Origin: a virus | DNA: 24,813 bases | Strand: one strand, 5' to 3' | IMG/VR virus record: IMGVR_UViG_3300025617_000110 | Location: 1 to 24,813 of that record | In this document: positions 2,166-24,813 of the stretch, in pieces | How the letters are laid out: every line of letters begins with the position of its first letter | How positions within the stretch are numbered: the stretch's first letter is position 1 | The notes under the pieces: model-generated | What the model was told of the DNA's origin: nothing | Database searches by the model: none | The model's input: only the letters and a program-made list of their open reading frames with translations | Translations under genes and position numbers: made by a program

Positions 2166-2315
2166 ATGGATAATATCGTGCAATATTTTGAACACACCAC
2201 AAAAGCTGGTGAAACAGTAATAACTCGAAATACAACTGATGGTTATTCATATTCATTCAACATTAATACAGACCCAACTGAGTATCAAAAATATTTAGAA
2301 TGGAAAAACAGATAA
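2166..2315 (+). CDS. Small hypothetical protein (49 aa)
   Basis: An ATG two bases after the fibre stop opens a 49-residue frame beginning MDNIVQYFEHTTKAGE and ending NTDPTEYQKYLEWKNR. It fills the otherwise empty gap before the oxygenase gene and overlaps that gene's start by 16 bases in another frame. Small proteins of this size next to fibre genes are frequent in marine podoviruses, but I do not recognise a family. There is no signal peptide or membrane segment. No strong Shine-Dalgarno sequence is visible, so re-initiation after the upstream stop is likely. Confidence 0.5.
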   Translation: MDNIVQYFEHTTKAGETVITRNTTDGYSYSFNINTDPTEYQKYLEWKNR

Positions 2316-2779
2316 TAGACAACTTCTTATGTGAAGATGATTTACATAAGGTTAAAAGTCTAATACTAGATAAATACTTTTCTTGGTATTACAACGATGG
2401 GAAAGAGTATGCTGATGACGAGTTCTTTCAGTTCACGCATATATTTTATAACAACCACAGTCCTAACAGTTCTTACTTTAAAGAACTACAGCCGTTCTTA
2501 GACAAACTAGATGTAAAAGCACTCATCAGAATTAAGGTTAATAATACTGGTCGAGAGCATACAATTAGAGCAGGTTCATACCATATAGACACACAAGTGC
2601 CATGTAACACAGCAATATGGTATCTAAATACTAATAACGGTAAAACACTTTTTGAAGATGGTGACGAAGTGGAAAGTGTAGAAAACAGAATGGTGATATT
2701 TCCATCACACATAAAACATACTGCTACTACACATACAGATACAAAGACTAGGATTGTAATTAACTTTAATTACATATAA
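2300..2779 (+). CDS. 2OG-Fe(II) oxygenase
   Basis: This 159-residue protein carries the facial triad of 2-oxoglutarate/Fe(II) dioxygenases: H95-x-D97 in SYHIDTQ, H140 in PSHIKHTA and R151 in TRIVINF, which would bind the 2-oxoglutarate carboxylate. Order and spacing fit the double-stranded beta-helix core, and the length is typical of compact phage versions. Such enzymes hydroxylate protein, nucleic acid or small-molecule substrates; the substrate here is unknown. It sits between fibre and internal-virion genes, so modification of a virion or host surface component is possible. It overlaps the next gene by one base (TAATG). Confidence 0.82.
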   Translation: MEKQIIDNFLCEDDLHKVKSLILDKYFSWYYNDGKEYADDEFFQFTHIFYNNHSPNSSYFKELQPFLDKLDVKALIRIKVNNTGREHTIRAGSYHIDTQVPCNTAIWYLNTNNGKTLFEDGDEVESVENRMVIFPSHIKHTATTHTDTKTRIVINFNYI

Positions 2780-9968: not shown

Positions 9969-10367
9969 ATGGTTTGGACAGCATTAATTGGCCCAGTAGC
10001 AGGGTTACTAGATAAGTTTATTGAAGACAAAGATCAGAAGAATAAGTTAGCACATGAGATTGCTACAATTTCTGAGAAACACGCACAGGAACTAGCTAAA
10101 GGCCAGCTAGAAGTTAACAAGGTAGAAGCTGCACATCGTTCACCTTTGGTTGCTGGTTGGAGACCTTTTATAGGATGGGTTTGTGGTATTGCATTGGCAT
10201 GGCACTTTGTATTATCGCCTGTTATAATATTCATAGCAGCGTTGTGCAATATAACATTACCTGCATTACCAGAATTTGATATGGGATCTTTAATGACTGT
10301 ATTAATGGGAATGTTAGGTCTAGGAGGTTTGAGAAGCTTTGAGAAGGCTAAAGGATTAACTAAATGA
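9969..10367 (+). CDS. GTA-type 3-TM holin
   Basis: The 132-residue protein has the hallmark segment EVNKVEAAHRSPLVAGWRPF (residues 48-67), followed by hydrophobic helices at about 68-94 and 106-122. This matches the family described as 'holin of 3TMs, for gene-transfer release', found in gene transfer agents and marine phages. It would form holes in the inner membrane to release the endolysin. An amphipathic charged N-terminal part precedes the core. It directly precedes the endolysin gene and overlaps it by four bases (ATGA), as in other holin-endolysin pairs. Confidence 0.85.
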   Translation: MVWTALIGPVAGLLDKFIEDKDQKNKLAHEIATISEKHAQELAKGQLEVNKVEAAHRSPLVAGWRPFIGWVCGIALAWHFVLSPVIIFIAALCNITLPALPEFDMGSLMTVLMGMLGLGGLRSFEKAKGLTK

Positions 10368-10794: not shown

Positions 10795-11496
10795 ATGAAT
10801 AACTCAGTATTAGTAATATCTGATTTACATATACCGTATCATCACCAAGATGCTTTTGATTTCTTAAAAGCGTTAAAGAAGAAGTATAAATTTGATATGG
10901 TTGTAAATATTGGTGATGAATGTGATCAGCACGCAATTAGTATGCATGAACATAATCCAGATCTAATGTCAGCAGGTGATGAGCTTAGGAAGTCTAAACA
11001 ATACATTCAAGATTTAGAAAAGATATTTCCTAGGATGACCCTAGTACATTCCAATCACTCATCATTAGTTTATCGCAGAGCGTTAAAGTATGGTCTACCT
11101 AAAGACTATCTAAAATCTTACAACGAGTTTTTAGGTGTAGGTAAAGGATGGGAGTGGGTAGATGATTTAACTATTACATTATCCGATGGATCAAAATGTT
11201 TCTTTACTCATGGGATGTCAGCCGATGTACTAAAAGTTGCACAACAATACGGCATGAATACGGTTCAGGGCCATTATCATACTAAATTCAACATAGGTTA
11301 CTACTCTAACCCAGAGTCTTTAATTTGGGGGATGCAAGTAGGATGTCTCATTAATCAAAAGTCTATGGCATTTGACTACGCCAAAAACTTTAAGTCTAGG
11401 TTTATTGTTGGCTGTGGAATAATTATTAATGGCCAGCCAAAATTAGTTCCAATGATCTTGGATAGAAATGGTCGCTGGAATCAGAAGATTTTATAA
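10795..11496 (+). CDS. Calcineurin-like metallophosphoesterase
   Basis: This 233-residue protein has the ordered metallophosphoesterase motifs D-x-H (SDLHIP, residues 9-14), G-D-x-x-D (NIGDECDQ), a degenerate G-N-H box (HSNHSS), a G/T-H box (FTHGMS) and G-H-x-H (QGHYHTKF). The metal-binding set is therefore nearly complete, although the usual glycine and acidic residue of GNH(D/E) are replaced. Such proteins in phages act on nucleic acid or nucleotide phosphoesters; the substrate is unknown. It follows the endolysin closely and is transcribed with the late genes. Confidence 0.82.
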   Translation: MNNSVLVISDLHIPYHHQDAFDFLKALKKKYKFDMVVNIGDECDQHAISMHEHNPDLMSAGDELRKSKQYIQDLEKIFPRMTLVHSNHSSLVYRRALKYGLPKDYLKSYNEFLGVGKGWEWVDDLTITLSDGSKCFFTHGMSADVLKVAQQYGMNTVQGHYHTKFNIGYYSNPESLIWGMQVGCLINQKSMAFDYAKNFKSRFIVGCGIIINGQPKLVPMILDRNGRWNQKIL

Positions 11497-12832: not shown

Positions 12833-12864
12833 TTGTCTTGTAGTTTTGAGCTTATCTGTATAAT
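12833..12864 (+). promoter_or_regulatory. Predicted sigma70-type promoter of pqqA
   Basis: A perfect -10 box TATAAT lies at 12859-12864. Possible -35 boxes are TTGTAG at 12838-12843 (15-base spacer) or TTGTCT at 12833-12838 (20-base spacer); both spacers depart from 17. Transcription would start near 12871, about 30 bases before pqqA. Confidence 0.5.
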
Positions 12865-12876: not shown

Positions 12877-12902
12877 GCAATTTATTTAGAAAGGATAACA
12901 TT

Positions 12903-12974
12903 ATGTGGACAAAACCATCAGCAACAGAAATGAGATTTGGCTTTGAAGTAACAATGTATGTTTGTAACAAGTAA
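12903..12974 (+). CDS. pqqA: PqqA, pyrroloquinoline quinone precursor peptide
   Basis: This is a 23-codon gene. The peptide starts MWTKPSATEMRF and continues GFEVTMYVCNK. It has the PqqA hallmark E-V-T-x-Y, with E15 and Y19, the two residues that PqqE cross-links and the later enzymes turn into PQQ. The MWTKP start and GFEVTMY core match proteobacterial PqqA peptides, and 23 residues is the usual length. AAGGA at 12891-12895 lies seven bases before the ATG. It is the only plus-strand gene within the minus block, with its own predicted promoter, and converges on the neighbour's stop with three bases between. No pqqB-E genes are visible, so host enzymes would have to process the peptide. Confidence 0.9.
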   Translation: MWTKPSATEMRFGFEVTMYVCNK

Positions 12975-12977
12975 AGT

Positions 12978-13172
12978 TTAACGGGGAGCATCAACCCTCC
13001 CCATTAATCTCTCATACATTACTGTATGATTCTTAATCCACCTAAAAGGAATTTCAACCTTTAGCATTCCAACATGATGTCCTGACCTGTGATGACATAA
13101 TACTTGTGCTTGATCAGGTAACATATGCCTATTTTCTTTAGGTATAAACCTAATAACACTAGAAGGGAACAT
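12978..13172 (-). CDS. Small basic hypothetical protein (64 aa)
   Basis: The start at 13172 lies inside the end of the SSB-like gene; a longer frame to 13340 would be out-of-frame shadow. The 64-residue product reads MFPSSVIRFIPKENRHMLP... with QVLCHHRSGHHVGMLKVEIP and ends MGRVDAPR. One Cys and several His suggest metal binding but no motif is certain. The stop is three bases from the pqqA stop (convergent), and the last codons contain a GC-rich hairpin. No family recognised. Confidence 0.5.
   Translation of the reverse strand: MFPSSVIRFIPKENRHMLPDQAQVLCHHRSGHHVGMLKVEIPFRWIKNHTVMYERLMGRVDAPR
12983..13002. terminator. GC-rich hairpin between convergent genes
   Basis: GGGGAG (12983-12988) pairs with CTCCCC (12997-13002) around an eight-base loop. 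It lies just after the pqqA stop on the plus strand and within the last codons of the minus gene. Neither side has a clear U tract, so it may be a weak bidirectional terminator or a 3' stabilising structure. Confidence 0.35.
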
Positions 13173-13454: not shown

Positions 13455-14234
13455 TTAATAAAATCTAACTTTGTTAATATCTGCTGTTCGATAATTATAT
13501 ACCTTCTCCACCGCCTCAAGATATTTTTGCATCGTAGCTTCTTTTTTTAATCCAGTTGGTTGTAATTCCAGCTTTCTTAAAAATATTTTATGGTTATACT
13601 TTTTATTTCTAAAAAGTCTTAACATACAATACACAAAACTTCCTTGCTTATAGTCTTCAAAAAACTGACCTATATCTGCAAGCTTTTTAGCTTGACTGTA
13701 TGCTCCATCTAAATCTGTTACTTTAAATAATCCTTTATCAAAATCTCTTTTATGTTGCCCAGTTCTTGCTAAAGAATTTGTTAATAATGCTATAGATGAA
13801 TTATATGAATGTCCAGTTTCTTCTTGAAAGTCTCTAAATAACAAATAATCTCTATATCCTCGTTTACAATAACTTTGTAAGTATTGTTTATTCCCCCAGT
13901 TTGAAGAGTTAGTATTTAATCTTTGTACATCTTCTAATTTCAATTTAGGAATAACAATAAAATGAATAGCAAGGCTTAAAGATTTTGCAGCTAAAAACCT
14001 ATGTTGTCCATCTATTATTTCATATCTATCATTAACAATGATTGGTACAGGAATGTATTTTTCAACCATAGACTGTTTTATTCTTGTTAAATTTTCTTTG
14101 TTAATATCTCTGTTTCCATCAATAAAACTAAATTGGTCGTAATCTTTTGTTTTTAAAACCTTAACGGATTCATCTACGCCTGATTTGAATAATTTAGAGC
14201 TATTGGCAATAAATGCTTGGCTTAATGTATTCAT
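13455..14234 (-). CDS. ParB-like nuclease-domain protein
   Basis: This is a 259-residue protein. The N-terminal third carries the ParB/sulfiredoxin-type core: GNRDINKENLTRIKQSM (40-56), then YIPVPIIVNDRYEIIDGQHR (60-79) with the typical D-G-Q-H-R box, followed by a helical region. Phage versions may act as nucleases, regulators or nucleotide-dependent switches; which applies here is unknown. The rest (about 110-259) is helical and Lys-rich with no recognised domain. It starts one base inside the end of the YqaJ gene. Confidence 0.75.
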   Translation of the reverse strand: MNTLSQAFIANSSKLFKSGVDESVKVLKTKDYDQFSFIDGNRDINKENLTRIKQSMVEKYIPVPIIVNDRYEIIDGQHRFLAAKSLSLAIHFIVIPKLKLEDVQRLNTNSSNWGNKQYLQSYCKRGYRDYLLFRDFQEETGHSYNSSIALLTNSLARTGQHKRDFDKGLFKVTDLDGAYSQAKKLADIGQFFEDYKQGSFVYCMLRLFRNKKYNHKIFLRKLELQPTGLKKEATMQKYLEAVEKVYNYRTADINKVRFY

Positions 14235-14809
14235 TATTTCTCCTTAGTATATTTAGGTTTCCTCTTGTAACGAGGGGGTTCAACATCATCGTTCACAAAT
14301 TGGATAAACTCTTCCATCTTCGGTAAATACCAATCCATAAACTTACTATCATATGGAACATACTCACGATGAGTTTCATGAGGTGTCCATACATAAAACC
14401 AGCCACCAACAGTCCTTGATACAAAACACTGCATCTGTATCTGAAACCAATAGCGTTCTGGAATCTCTGGGTATATCTTCTGGGTAAACGGACATTTTAT
14501 TTCAACAGGAATCCATTGATCATAAGCCTGATAAAATATGAACGCATCAGCCGATGCTCCGCAAGGCAAAATATCATGGACAAGTAATTTATTACCTGCT
14601 TTGCATATTTGATCCATCTCATCTTCAAACGCTGCAAGAGCAATAGGCTCGTTATCGAGACCCCACTGAGTCATAATATTGCCAGAAAATGGTTCTGCAC
14701 GACCAGTCTTTTCCCTCCATAACTTTTGTCTTTCGTAAACAGCCGACCATGCTTGGCTGGCTGTCACGATAGAATTACGAAGTTTTTTATTACTAAGATG
14801 CGAACTCAT
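14234..14809 (-). CDS. YqaJ-type recombination exonuclease
   Basis: This 191-residue protein shows the YqaJ/lambda-exonuclease-type PD-(D/E)XK core. It has TASQAW (16-21), WGLDNEPIALAAFE with E54, CGASADAF with D88, VEIKCP with E103 and K105, and YWFQIQMQCFV with Q123/Q125. It would degrade duplex DNA from ends to give single strands for the adjacent annealing protein. Length is at the compact end for the family. It overlaps the upstream gene by 17 bases, indicating coupled expression of a two-component recombination system. Confidence 0.85.
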   Translation of the reverse strand: MSSHLSNKKLRNSIVTASQAWSAVYERQKLWREKTGRAEPFSGNIMTQWGLDNEPIALAAFEDEMDQICKAGNKLLVHDILPCGASADAFIFYQAYDQWIPVEIKCPFTQKIYPEIPERYWFQIQMQCFVSRTVGGWFYVWTPHETHREYVPYDSKFMDWYLPKMEEFIQFVNDDVEPPRYKRKPKYTKEK

Positions 14810-22387: not shown

Positions 22388-22601
22388 AGAAAAGATTCAG
22401 ACAAGTCAGCTTATAAATCGCCTGCAAAATCATGCACTTAGCGAAGAAATAAATGAACTTAAGCCAAGTCAATTAAAAGCGATTGAGATACTATTGAAGA
22501 AGTCGTTACCTGACTTACAGTCTACTGAAATCACAGGTGATTCTGATGCTCCAGTAAACTTTAAAGTAATTACTGGTATTCCTAAGAAATCAGATGAGTG
22601 A
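22347..22601 (+). CDS. Terminase small-subunit candidate
   Basis: The ATG at 22347 follows GGAG by six bases; an ATG at 22335 is less supported. The 84-residue protein is helical (LKTREKIQTSQLINRLQNHA, LKPSQLKAIEILLKKSLPDL) and ends with a polar tail. Location immediately upstream of the large terminase, overlapping it by eight bases, suggests the small, DNA-recognising subunit. It is shorter than usual, so it may be a partial or divergent type. Confidence 0.5.
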   Translation: MATRKNLKQTLKTREKIQTSQLINRLQNHALSEEINELKPSQLKAIEILLKKSLPDLQSTEITGDSDAPVNFKVITGIPKKSDE

Positions 22602-23904
22602 GGTTGAATTACAAGAGCTCGAAACTGAAGAAGAAGAGGTTATCGAGGAAGAGGTTGATTTAAACTACAGACCTAGAGATCCACAGTTATTAATACATGA
22701 GGCTGTTGAAGATCATAGGTTTAATGTAGTCGTTGCTCATCGTAGGATGGGTAAAACGGTTTCAGCTATCAATCAGTTAATACATAGTGCATTAAACTGC
22801 GAGAAGTCTAACCCTAGATTTGCTTACATTGCTCCTACATACAACCAAGCTAAACGAGTGGCTTGGGATTATTTACTTGAGTACACAAGGCCATTAGATG
22901 CTAAAGCGAATATTGCAGAGCTTAGAGTTGATTTTATGGGTGTCCGTATCTCTTTATACGGTGCTGATAATGTTGATTCTCTTCGAGGCATCTACCTCGA
23001 TGGTGTAGTGATTGATGAGATTGGTGATGTAAATCCTAATCTATTTACAGAAGTAATACGACCAGCTCTGGCTGACCGCAAAGGCTGGACTTTGTTTATT
23101 GGTACACCTAAAGGTGCTAACCACTTTAAAACATTACGAGATAAAGCTTCAACTAAAGATGACGGCTGGAACTTATTAGAGTTTAAAGCTAGTGAGACAA
23201 AGATATTAGATCAAGAAGAGCTTGATGCTGCATTTAAAGCTATGGGTGAGTCAAAGTTCTTACAAGAGTTTGAATGTAGCTTCGCAGCTCCAGTTGAAGG
23301 TGCTTATTACGGTAGCTTGATCAATGATCTATATACAAAAGGTCAAGTGACTGATGTTCCTACTGATGGTATAGCAAAGACATTTACAGCTTGGGATTTA
23401 GGTATGGGTGATTCTACTGCTATTTGGGTAGCTCAAGTTGTAGGTAAAGAAATTAGATTGATTGATTTCATGGAAAATCATGGAGTTGGATTAGATCATT
23501 ACATTAAATGGATAAGGGATAACGGCTACGCTACTGCTGAACATCTTTTGCCACATGATGTACAAGTTCGTGAACTAGGAACTGGTAAGTCTCGTAAAGA
23601 GATGATAGAAGAGTCAGGTCTTCCAGTGACTGTTGTAGCAAAGTTAGGTGTCGATGATGGTATTCAAGCAGTAAGAAGAATGTTACCTAGATGCTGGTTC
23701 GATATAAAAACAAAACAAGGCTTAGATGCTCTACAAAACTATCGTAGAACTTACGATGATAAAAGAGATGTATTTTTTGATAAGCCTATACACGATTGGT
23801 GTTCCCATGCTTCTGATGCTTTTAGATACCTTGCAGTTGGGTTAGATGAAGGCACAAGTGATTGGAATAAACCACTAGACATAAACAATTCATGGGTAGT
23901 TTAA
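22594..23904 (+). CDS. terL: Terminase large subunit
   Basis: This 436-residue protein has an acidic N-terminus, Walker A AHRRMGKT (48-55), Walker B GVVIDE (137-142) and a coupling GTPKG (170-174). The C-terminal RNase-H-like nuclease has D268 in TAWDLGMGD, D322 in PHDVQV and D408 in SHASDAF. It cuts and pumps DNA into the procapsid through the portal. Length and motifs fit the Terminase_6-type families of podoviruses. Both ATPase and nuclease active sites look intact. Confidence 0.93.
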   Translation: MSEVELQELETEEEEVIEEEVDLNYRPRDPQLLIHEAVEDHRFNVVVAHRRMGKTVSAINQLIHSALNCEKSNPRFAYIAPTYNQAKRVAWDYLLEYTRPLDAKANIAELRVDFMGVRISLYGADNVDSLRGIYLDGVVIDEIGDVNPNLFTEVIRPALADRKGWTLFIGTPKGANHFKTLRDKASTKDDGWNLLEFKASETKILDQEELDAAFKAMGESKFLQEFECSFAAPVEGAYYGSLINDLYTKGQVTDVPTDGIAKTFTAWDLGMGDSTAIWVAQVVGKEIRLIDFMENHGVGLDHYIKWIRDNGYATAEHLLPHDVQVRELGTGKSRKEMIEESGLPVTVVAKLGVDDGIQAVRRMLPRCWFDIKTKQGLDALQNYRRTYDDKRDVFFDKPIHDWCSHASDAFRYLAVGLDEGTSDWNKPLDINNSWVV

Positions 23905-24813
23905 ATGGCAGATGACAATAAATTAAAGAGTATTCTGGATTCAGAGATCGATGATGCTATCGGTTATCTAGAGACAGAGACTACTGACGAAAGACAGCAA
24001 GCACTCGAATACTATTTAGGTGAACCATATGGTAATGAAGTTGAAGGTAAGTCTCAAATCATTACAAGAGAAGTAGCAGAAGTAGTTGATGGTTCATTGC
24101 CACAACTTATGCGTGTATTTACTTCATCTGACGATGCAGTTGTATTTGAACCAGTTAATCAAGGTGATGAAGAAGCTGCTGAACAAGCTACTACTTATGT
24201 AAACCATATATTCTATAAAGACAATAACGGTTTCGAGATTATGCATGACTGGATGAAGGATGCACTTCTTCAAAAGGTTGGTGTTGTTAAAGCATACTGG
24301 GAAGATAAGACAGATGTTAATGTTGAGAAGTATTATGGCCTAAGTGATGACGAGTTGGCTATGATTGCTCAAGACGAAGAAGTTGATATTGTAAGCCAAG
24401 ATTCTACTATTGTTCAAGAAGCTCAGCTTGATCCAATGACTGGCATGGAAGTATCACCAGTTATATCAATGCATGATGTTAAGCTTAAGCGTTCTGTTAA
24501 CAAAGGCAAAGTGGTTGTAGAGAATGTACCACCAGAAGAGTTCTTAATATCTAAGCGTGCTAGAACTATTGCAGATGCACCATTTGTAGCTCATCGTAAG
24601 ATGGTGACTCGTGGTGAATTGATTGCTATGGGTTATGACGAAGAGGTAGTAGAAAAGTTACCTACAGGTGATGCACTAGAGTTTAGCCCAGAAAGAATAG
24701 CTAGATACTCCAGAGGTGAACAACCTACCGATATGGATTCAGATGATGAGTCAATGCAGTTGGTTGAATACTTTGAGTGCTATATTCAAGTAGATATGGA
24801 TGATGATGATATT
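23905..24813 (+). CDS. Portal protein, 3' partial
   Basis: The ATG immediately follows the terminase stop. 303 codons are visible and the frame runs off the window. The sequence reads MADDNKLKSILDSEIDDAIG..., with QQALEYYLGEPYGNEVEGKS, ITREVAEVVDGSLPQLMRVF and VENVPPEEFLISKRARTIAD. This is the pattern of P22-like portal proteins, which form the dodecameric DNA gate. An acidic insertion lies at about residues 155-185. Confidence 0.88.
   Translation, partial: MADDNKLKSILDSEIDDAIGYLETETTDERQQALEYYLGEPYGNEVEGKSQIITREVAEVVDGSLPQLMRVFTSSDDAVVFEPVNQGDEEAAEQATTYVNHIFYKDNNGFEIMHDWMKDALLQKVGVVKAYWEDKTDVNVEKYYGLSDDELAMIAQDEEVDIVSQDSTIVQEAQLDPMTGMEVSPVISMHDVKLKRSVNKGKVVVENVPPEEFLISKRARTIADAPFVAHRKMVTRGELIAMGYDEEVVEKLPTGDALEFSPERIARYSRGEQPTDMDSDDESMQLVEYFECYIQVDMDDDDI

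Follow-up and report, generated by a model that had tools for sequence, protein, structure and literature searches.

Pyrroloquinoline quinone (PQQ) is made from a short peptide, PqqA, which is cross-linked at Glu15-Tyr19 by PqqE with PqqD and then taken on to PQQ by host proteases, PqqB and PqqC. One PqqA peptide is destroyed per PQQ produced, while the enzymes are reused. A phage PqqA, with methylotrophs as the hosts it is predicted to serve, has already been reported from VP_266, a T4-like methylotroph virus of Lake Baikal that also encodes methanol dehydrogenase (PMC7678222), and pqqA, pqqE and pqqD are among the virus-encoded genes listed from reservoir sediment. The idea of a phage PqqA is not, therefore, wholly new, and the stretch of viral DNA analysed here (IMG/VR record IMGVR_UViG_3300025617_000110, 24,813 nucleotides; hereafter the window) is a further example of the reported type, although it is Venkman-like and without methanol dehydrogenase. 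What seems new is the breadth of the phenomenon, pqqA being found in every cultured methylophage in the phage collection searched, an observation that seems to be unreported in the part of the literature covered.

The window peptide matches the PqqA (TIGR02107/PF08042) of host Methylophilaceae in its length of 23 residues, its MWTKP start, its EMRFGFEVTMY core and its E15/Y19 pair. Unlike the host copies, however, the window gene is single, is carried by a phage and lies away from pqqBCDE. As with the classical auxiliary metabolic genes psbA, phoH and mazG, pqqA is host-like and would prop up the metabolism of the infected cell but, unlike theirs, its product is a consumed substrate, not an enzyme or regulator.

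The pqqA gene and its phage context

The first entry in Table 1 is a real PqqA gene. Its product scores 44.7 bits against the NCBIfam TIGR02107 equivalog model (cut-off 20) and 43.3 bits against Pfam PF08042 (cut-off 21.1), and the DNA pattern for PqqA has a single match in the window and none in 100 dinucleotide shuffles. The reactive Glu and Tyr have the E-x-x-x-Y spacing and lie inside an EVTxY core, as they do in the homologues from isolates. The sequence-only reading, which had proposed a 23-codon plus-strand pqqA at this position, with a good ribosome-binding site, among phage genes and with no other pqq gene in the window, is borne out on each of these points: a Shine-Dalgarno sequence precedes the start codon, no homologues of pqqB, pqqC, pqqD or pqqE were found in the window by local tblastn, and the terminase, portal protein, replicative helicase and RecE-like exonuclease (recognised through PHROGs) and the holin and M15 peptidase (through Pfam) are those of a phage. 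Together with the existence of complete isolate relatives, these genes place pqqA in a genuine phage genome.

Table 1. Coordinates of pqqA, its local signals and the phage genes discussed
Feature	Position	Strand	Remarks
pqqA, 23-aa PQQ precursor peptide MWTKPSATEMRFGFEVTMYVCNK plus stop	12903..12974	+	E15 and Y19 present
Shine-Dalgarno AAAGGA	12890..12895	+	7 nt 5' of pqqA ATG
Perfect -10 hexamer TATAAT	12859..12864	+	putative own promoter of pqqA, weak -35
11-bp hairpin, terminator-like	12978..13007	.	3 nt 3' of pqqA stop
Neighbour of pqqA, 75-aa phage protein	12591..12818	-	function not assigned
Neighbour of pqqA, 94 aa	13159..13443	-	acidic C-terminal tip EDVPF, no Pfam match
RecE-like recombination exonuclease	14234..14809	-	early/replication region; PHROGs
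Large terminase	22594..23904	+	71% identical to Venkman
Portal protein	23905..24813	+	PHROGs; continues past window end

Among 50,697 phage records, the window terminase comes closest to its counterparts in the OM43 phage Venkman (71% identity) and in Manatee Spring ctXG6705 (68%), with pelagiphage terminases next at around 50%. Given this proximity, the window derives from a tailed phage related to Venkman, with a likely Methylophilales (OM43-like) host. Judged by eye, the tail of the 94-aa neighbour is SSB-like and the protein is possibly a single-stranded DNA-binding protein; the Manatee Spring phage has a gene annotated as a putative SSB next to its pqqA. Elsewhere in the window, positions 2300-2779 (+) match PHROGs with the conflicting names DNA endonuclease V and 2OG-Fe(II) oxygenase, while a metallophosphoesterase (phrog_221) is encoded after the lysis genes at 10795-11496 (+). 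A metallophosphoesterase has been reported as an auxiliary gene in MEP401-type phages (PMC10580990).

Both genes flanking pqqA in the window are on the opposite strand, so that pqqA forms a stand-alone unit there. The -10 hexamer upstream was not called by a sigma-70 scan of the window employing spacings of 16-18. The T-tract of the hairpin beyond the stop codon is on its minus-strand side, and the hairpin may therefore serve the convergent gene or both genes. A strongly structured pqqA transcript in the window itself was considered and dropped (z -0.18).

Occurrence in cultured and collected phages

A tblastn search of the phage collection (50,697 records) with the 23 residues matched Venkman, P19250A, MEP301, MEP401, MEP402, four Melnitz isolates and Manatee Spring ctXG6705. 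The gene is thus present in nine of the nine Methylophilales or Methylophilaceae phage records matched in the collection; 'every cultured methylophage' is used here in the sense of those found in the collection, MEP431-434 and HIM624-A falling outside these results. Like the window, Venkman, P19250A, MEP301, MEP401/402 and Melnitz have one copy of the same peptide gene and no pqqE, differing from the window peptide in the MKW start of Melnitz and in Ser or Thr at position 4 of MEP301 and P19250A. MW202697, a MEP401-like Manatee Spring phage of unassigned host with a terminase 74% identical, gave no pqqA match in the same search; the gene therefore falls short of being universal in the strict sense. 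No pqqA was found in the SAR11 phages of the collection (the pelagiphage, HTVC023P-like members).

The further matches comprised two contigs labelled Acinetobacter phage and one at chance level (E=5). One of the contigs so labelled (CAKLQF020000010.1, 3001-6054; L130) has a polyphosphate kinase gene next to a pqqA-pqqE operon and, with its full pqq operon, looks like bacterial chromosome.

It had also been predicted that automated gene callers would miss so small a gene, and the GenBank phage records bear this out. Those of Venkman, P19250A, MEP301, MEP401 and MEP402 have no annotation under the pqqA match, while in the ctXG6705 and Melnitz records a hypothetical protein is annotated over it on the opposite strand. 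In Venkman (MT375522.1) the pqqA codons occupy 9977-10045 on the minus strand. Two such antisense products, UOF77531.1 (L002, 2067-2195) and QZI94879.1 (L129, 2961-3056), are probably spurious. No PHROGs family matches pqqA, and this absence, combined with a length of 23 codons, would explain why the phage gene has been overlooked. The publications covered on these cultured phages, a partial literature, make no mention of PqqA, and PQQ appears in them once, as a medium ingredient.

Conservation and expression signals in IMG/VR

Viral pqqA was sought in IMG/VR through two non-overlapping DNA patterns, specifying Lys or Thr/Ser at position 4 and both ending at codon 19. Each yielded at least 120 contigs, giving at least 240 viral contigs with pqqA in total. 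These fall into dozens of gene-content groups, many of the contigs being short, and represent many unrelated phage lineages. The peptide is conserved in related phages, a point on which the original proposal might have foundered: it is shared by the nine methylophage records, ctXG6705 and the IMG/VR contigs, and the E-V-T-x-Y spacing is retained in the isolates.

A stop codon directly follows codon 23 in 271 of the 272 pattern-found viral loci listed (152/152 in a first analysis and 119/120 in a second). Since the patterns extend only to codon 19, this conservation of length is not imposed by them. Measured over pattern-free codons in 109 distinct sequences, pN is 0.166 and pS 0.698, a dN/dS of 0.094: viral pqqA is under strong purifying selection. 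Scans of the whole of IMG/VR for viral pqqA with E15 replaced (by any residue but Asp) or Y19 replaced (second-base changes only) found none, the same skeleton having recovered 239 of 248 known loci as a positive control.

A Shine-Dalgarno sequence is present, among the matches listed, in all 123 methylotroph-type viral loci with enough upstream sequence. Of 93 non-redundant viral loci, 30% have a perfect TATAAT upstream, compared with 8% in shuffles. Across the viral homologues hairpins are over-represented as well, with a mean z of -1.56 for the 5' leader and of -2.27 for the region 3' of the stop, and both neighbours are on the other strand in 91 of 219 loci. Viral pqqA appears from these signals to be a small independent transcription unit, and its transcription is predicted on the same grounds. 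Each of the 46 long or complete viral records bearing pqqA has exactly one copy and none has a PqqE above the model cut-off; no PQQ alcohol dehydrogenase was found in the viral records searched.

Some loci were set aside. In L248, L255, L256 and L260, which encode RLGLEVTLYISNR-type peptides, pqqA lies near contig ends and these are probable host flanks; L260 alone of the four has pqqB beside pqqA.

Host copies and the origin of the phage gene

All 150 Methylophilaceae genomes have pqqA, with a median of 4 copies and a range of 1-12, and pqqE is present in 11 of 12 sampled genomes of methylotrophs, the likely host family as inferred for the window phage. The host pqqA copies are scattered in the genome, LSUCC0135 having 12 with identical scores. 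The dosage of the substrate gene seems to be of importance to hosts as well.

Window PqqA is one or two residues away from the nearest host peptides sampled, and phage alleles parallel those of hosts, K4T included. Thr/Ser at position 4 was considered as a phage-specific variant and dropped, being a common host allele too. At the DNA level, window pqqA is at most 86% identical to the sampled host copies and up to 100% identical to phage copies. The host homologues and the dN/dS value together mark pqqA as a host-derived metabolic gene kept by selection.

Phages probably gained pqqA more than once. L027 and L087, related to HTVC023P/HTVC027P by capsid protein, carry a methylotroph-type pqqA immediately after the capsid gene; in L247 and L017, of the same HTVC023P-like lineage, pqqA is of the alpha type and located elsewhere. 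The differing types and sites within this lineage, and the absence of the gene from its SAR11 members, fit repeated uptake following the host. Alpha-type pqqA (TYEKIRLGFEVTMYFKNS and similar) occurs in viral contigs L247, L249-L254, L257, L259 and L261-L270; two of these contigs exceed 200 kb.

Proposed role and its alternatives

We consider it very probable that phage pqqA supplies the consumed peptide, from which host enzymes make PQQ for methanol dehydrogenase. The phage would contribute the PqqA substrate only, in a gene of 72 bases, and borrow the rest: PqqE/PqqD, proteases, PqqB and PqqC of the host would process the phage peptide to PQQ. Because the peptide is consumed and the enzymes are reused, it is the peptide that would run out first if host messages were lost during infection. 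PQQ would then be kept up for the XoxF-type methanol dehydrogenase, and with it the energy supply of the infected cell. Overexpression of pqqA or pqqAB gives more PQQ, and PqqA added to cell-free extract is converted to PQQ at 70-80% (both reported or cited in PMC7936290 and PMC9851590), and no gene of an OM43 isolate is transcribed more strongly than xoxF (PMC5120137). We infer expression of the gene, processing by host enzymes and an effect on PQQ and methanol oxidation; more PQQ for the host methanol dehydrogenase fits both the host range and the biochemistry of the PqqA family. Some observations pull the other way. With several pqqA copies already present in the host, the benefit to the phage is not obvious; the lack of a PQQ dehydrogenase in the viral records searched counts against a role in PQQ supply, as does the missing pqqA match in MW202697. 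The broader proposition, that pqqA is a near-general rule in phages of PQQ-dependent methylotrophs, often acquired by unrelated lineages, and that supply of the consumed substrate relieves a bottleneck, we hold with less assurance, as somewhat better than an even chance.

The same peptide might conversely act as a decoy, binding PqqD/PqqE, blocking PQQ synthesis and stopping host methanol oxidation. A stand-alone, probably well expressed peptide could indeed titrate PqqD, but nothing would oblige a decoy to keep the two reacting residues, yet none of the replacements of either that were scanned for was found in IMG/VR, and the retention of these residues makes such a role less likely. The phage peptides also stay within host allele types and, methanol oxidation being hard to replace in methylotrophs, its shutdown would presumably hurt the phage; we regard blockade as improbable. 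A similarly small chance attaches to a use of the PQQ outside methanol dehydrogenase, for instance in redox protection or through its release to nearby cells. The same peptide would lead to the same cofactor whatever its use, and the hosts of some viral contigs, those with alpha-type pqqA, are not known as methylotrophs; in the phage collection, however, pqqA occurs only in methylophages and phages closely related to them, and the most expressed host gene, xoxF, encodes a PQQ enzyme (PMC5120137).

Least credible of all, and very remote in our estimation, is a functionless passenger or host contamination. The gene is small, and contigs of bacterial type are indeed to be found in viral records (L260 with pqqB beside pqqA, and the CAKLQF contig), but complete isolate phages carry pqqA, and purifying selection, many independent sites and stand-alone expression signals all speak for a functional phage gene. 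The selection and isolate data already contradict this explanation, and supply of PqqA for PQQ synthesis remains the reading we prefer.

Significance

Bacteria of the OM43/LD28 groups are main methanol consumers in the coastal sea and in lakes. The case of pqqA illustrates that very short genes can lie hidden even in well-studied phage genomes, and cultured pairs are available in Venkman-H5P1, MEP401-FZCC0133 and P19250A-IMCC19250. If the proposed role is true, pqqA would offer a clear example of raw material being fed into a pathway by a phage and, should OM43/LD28 phages commonly maintain PQQ in dying cells, viruses would act directly on methanol turnover.
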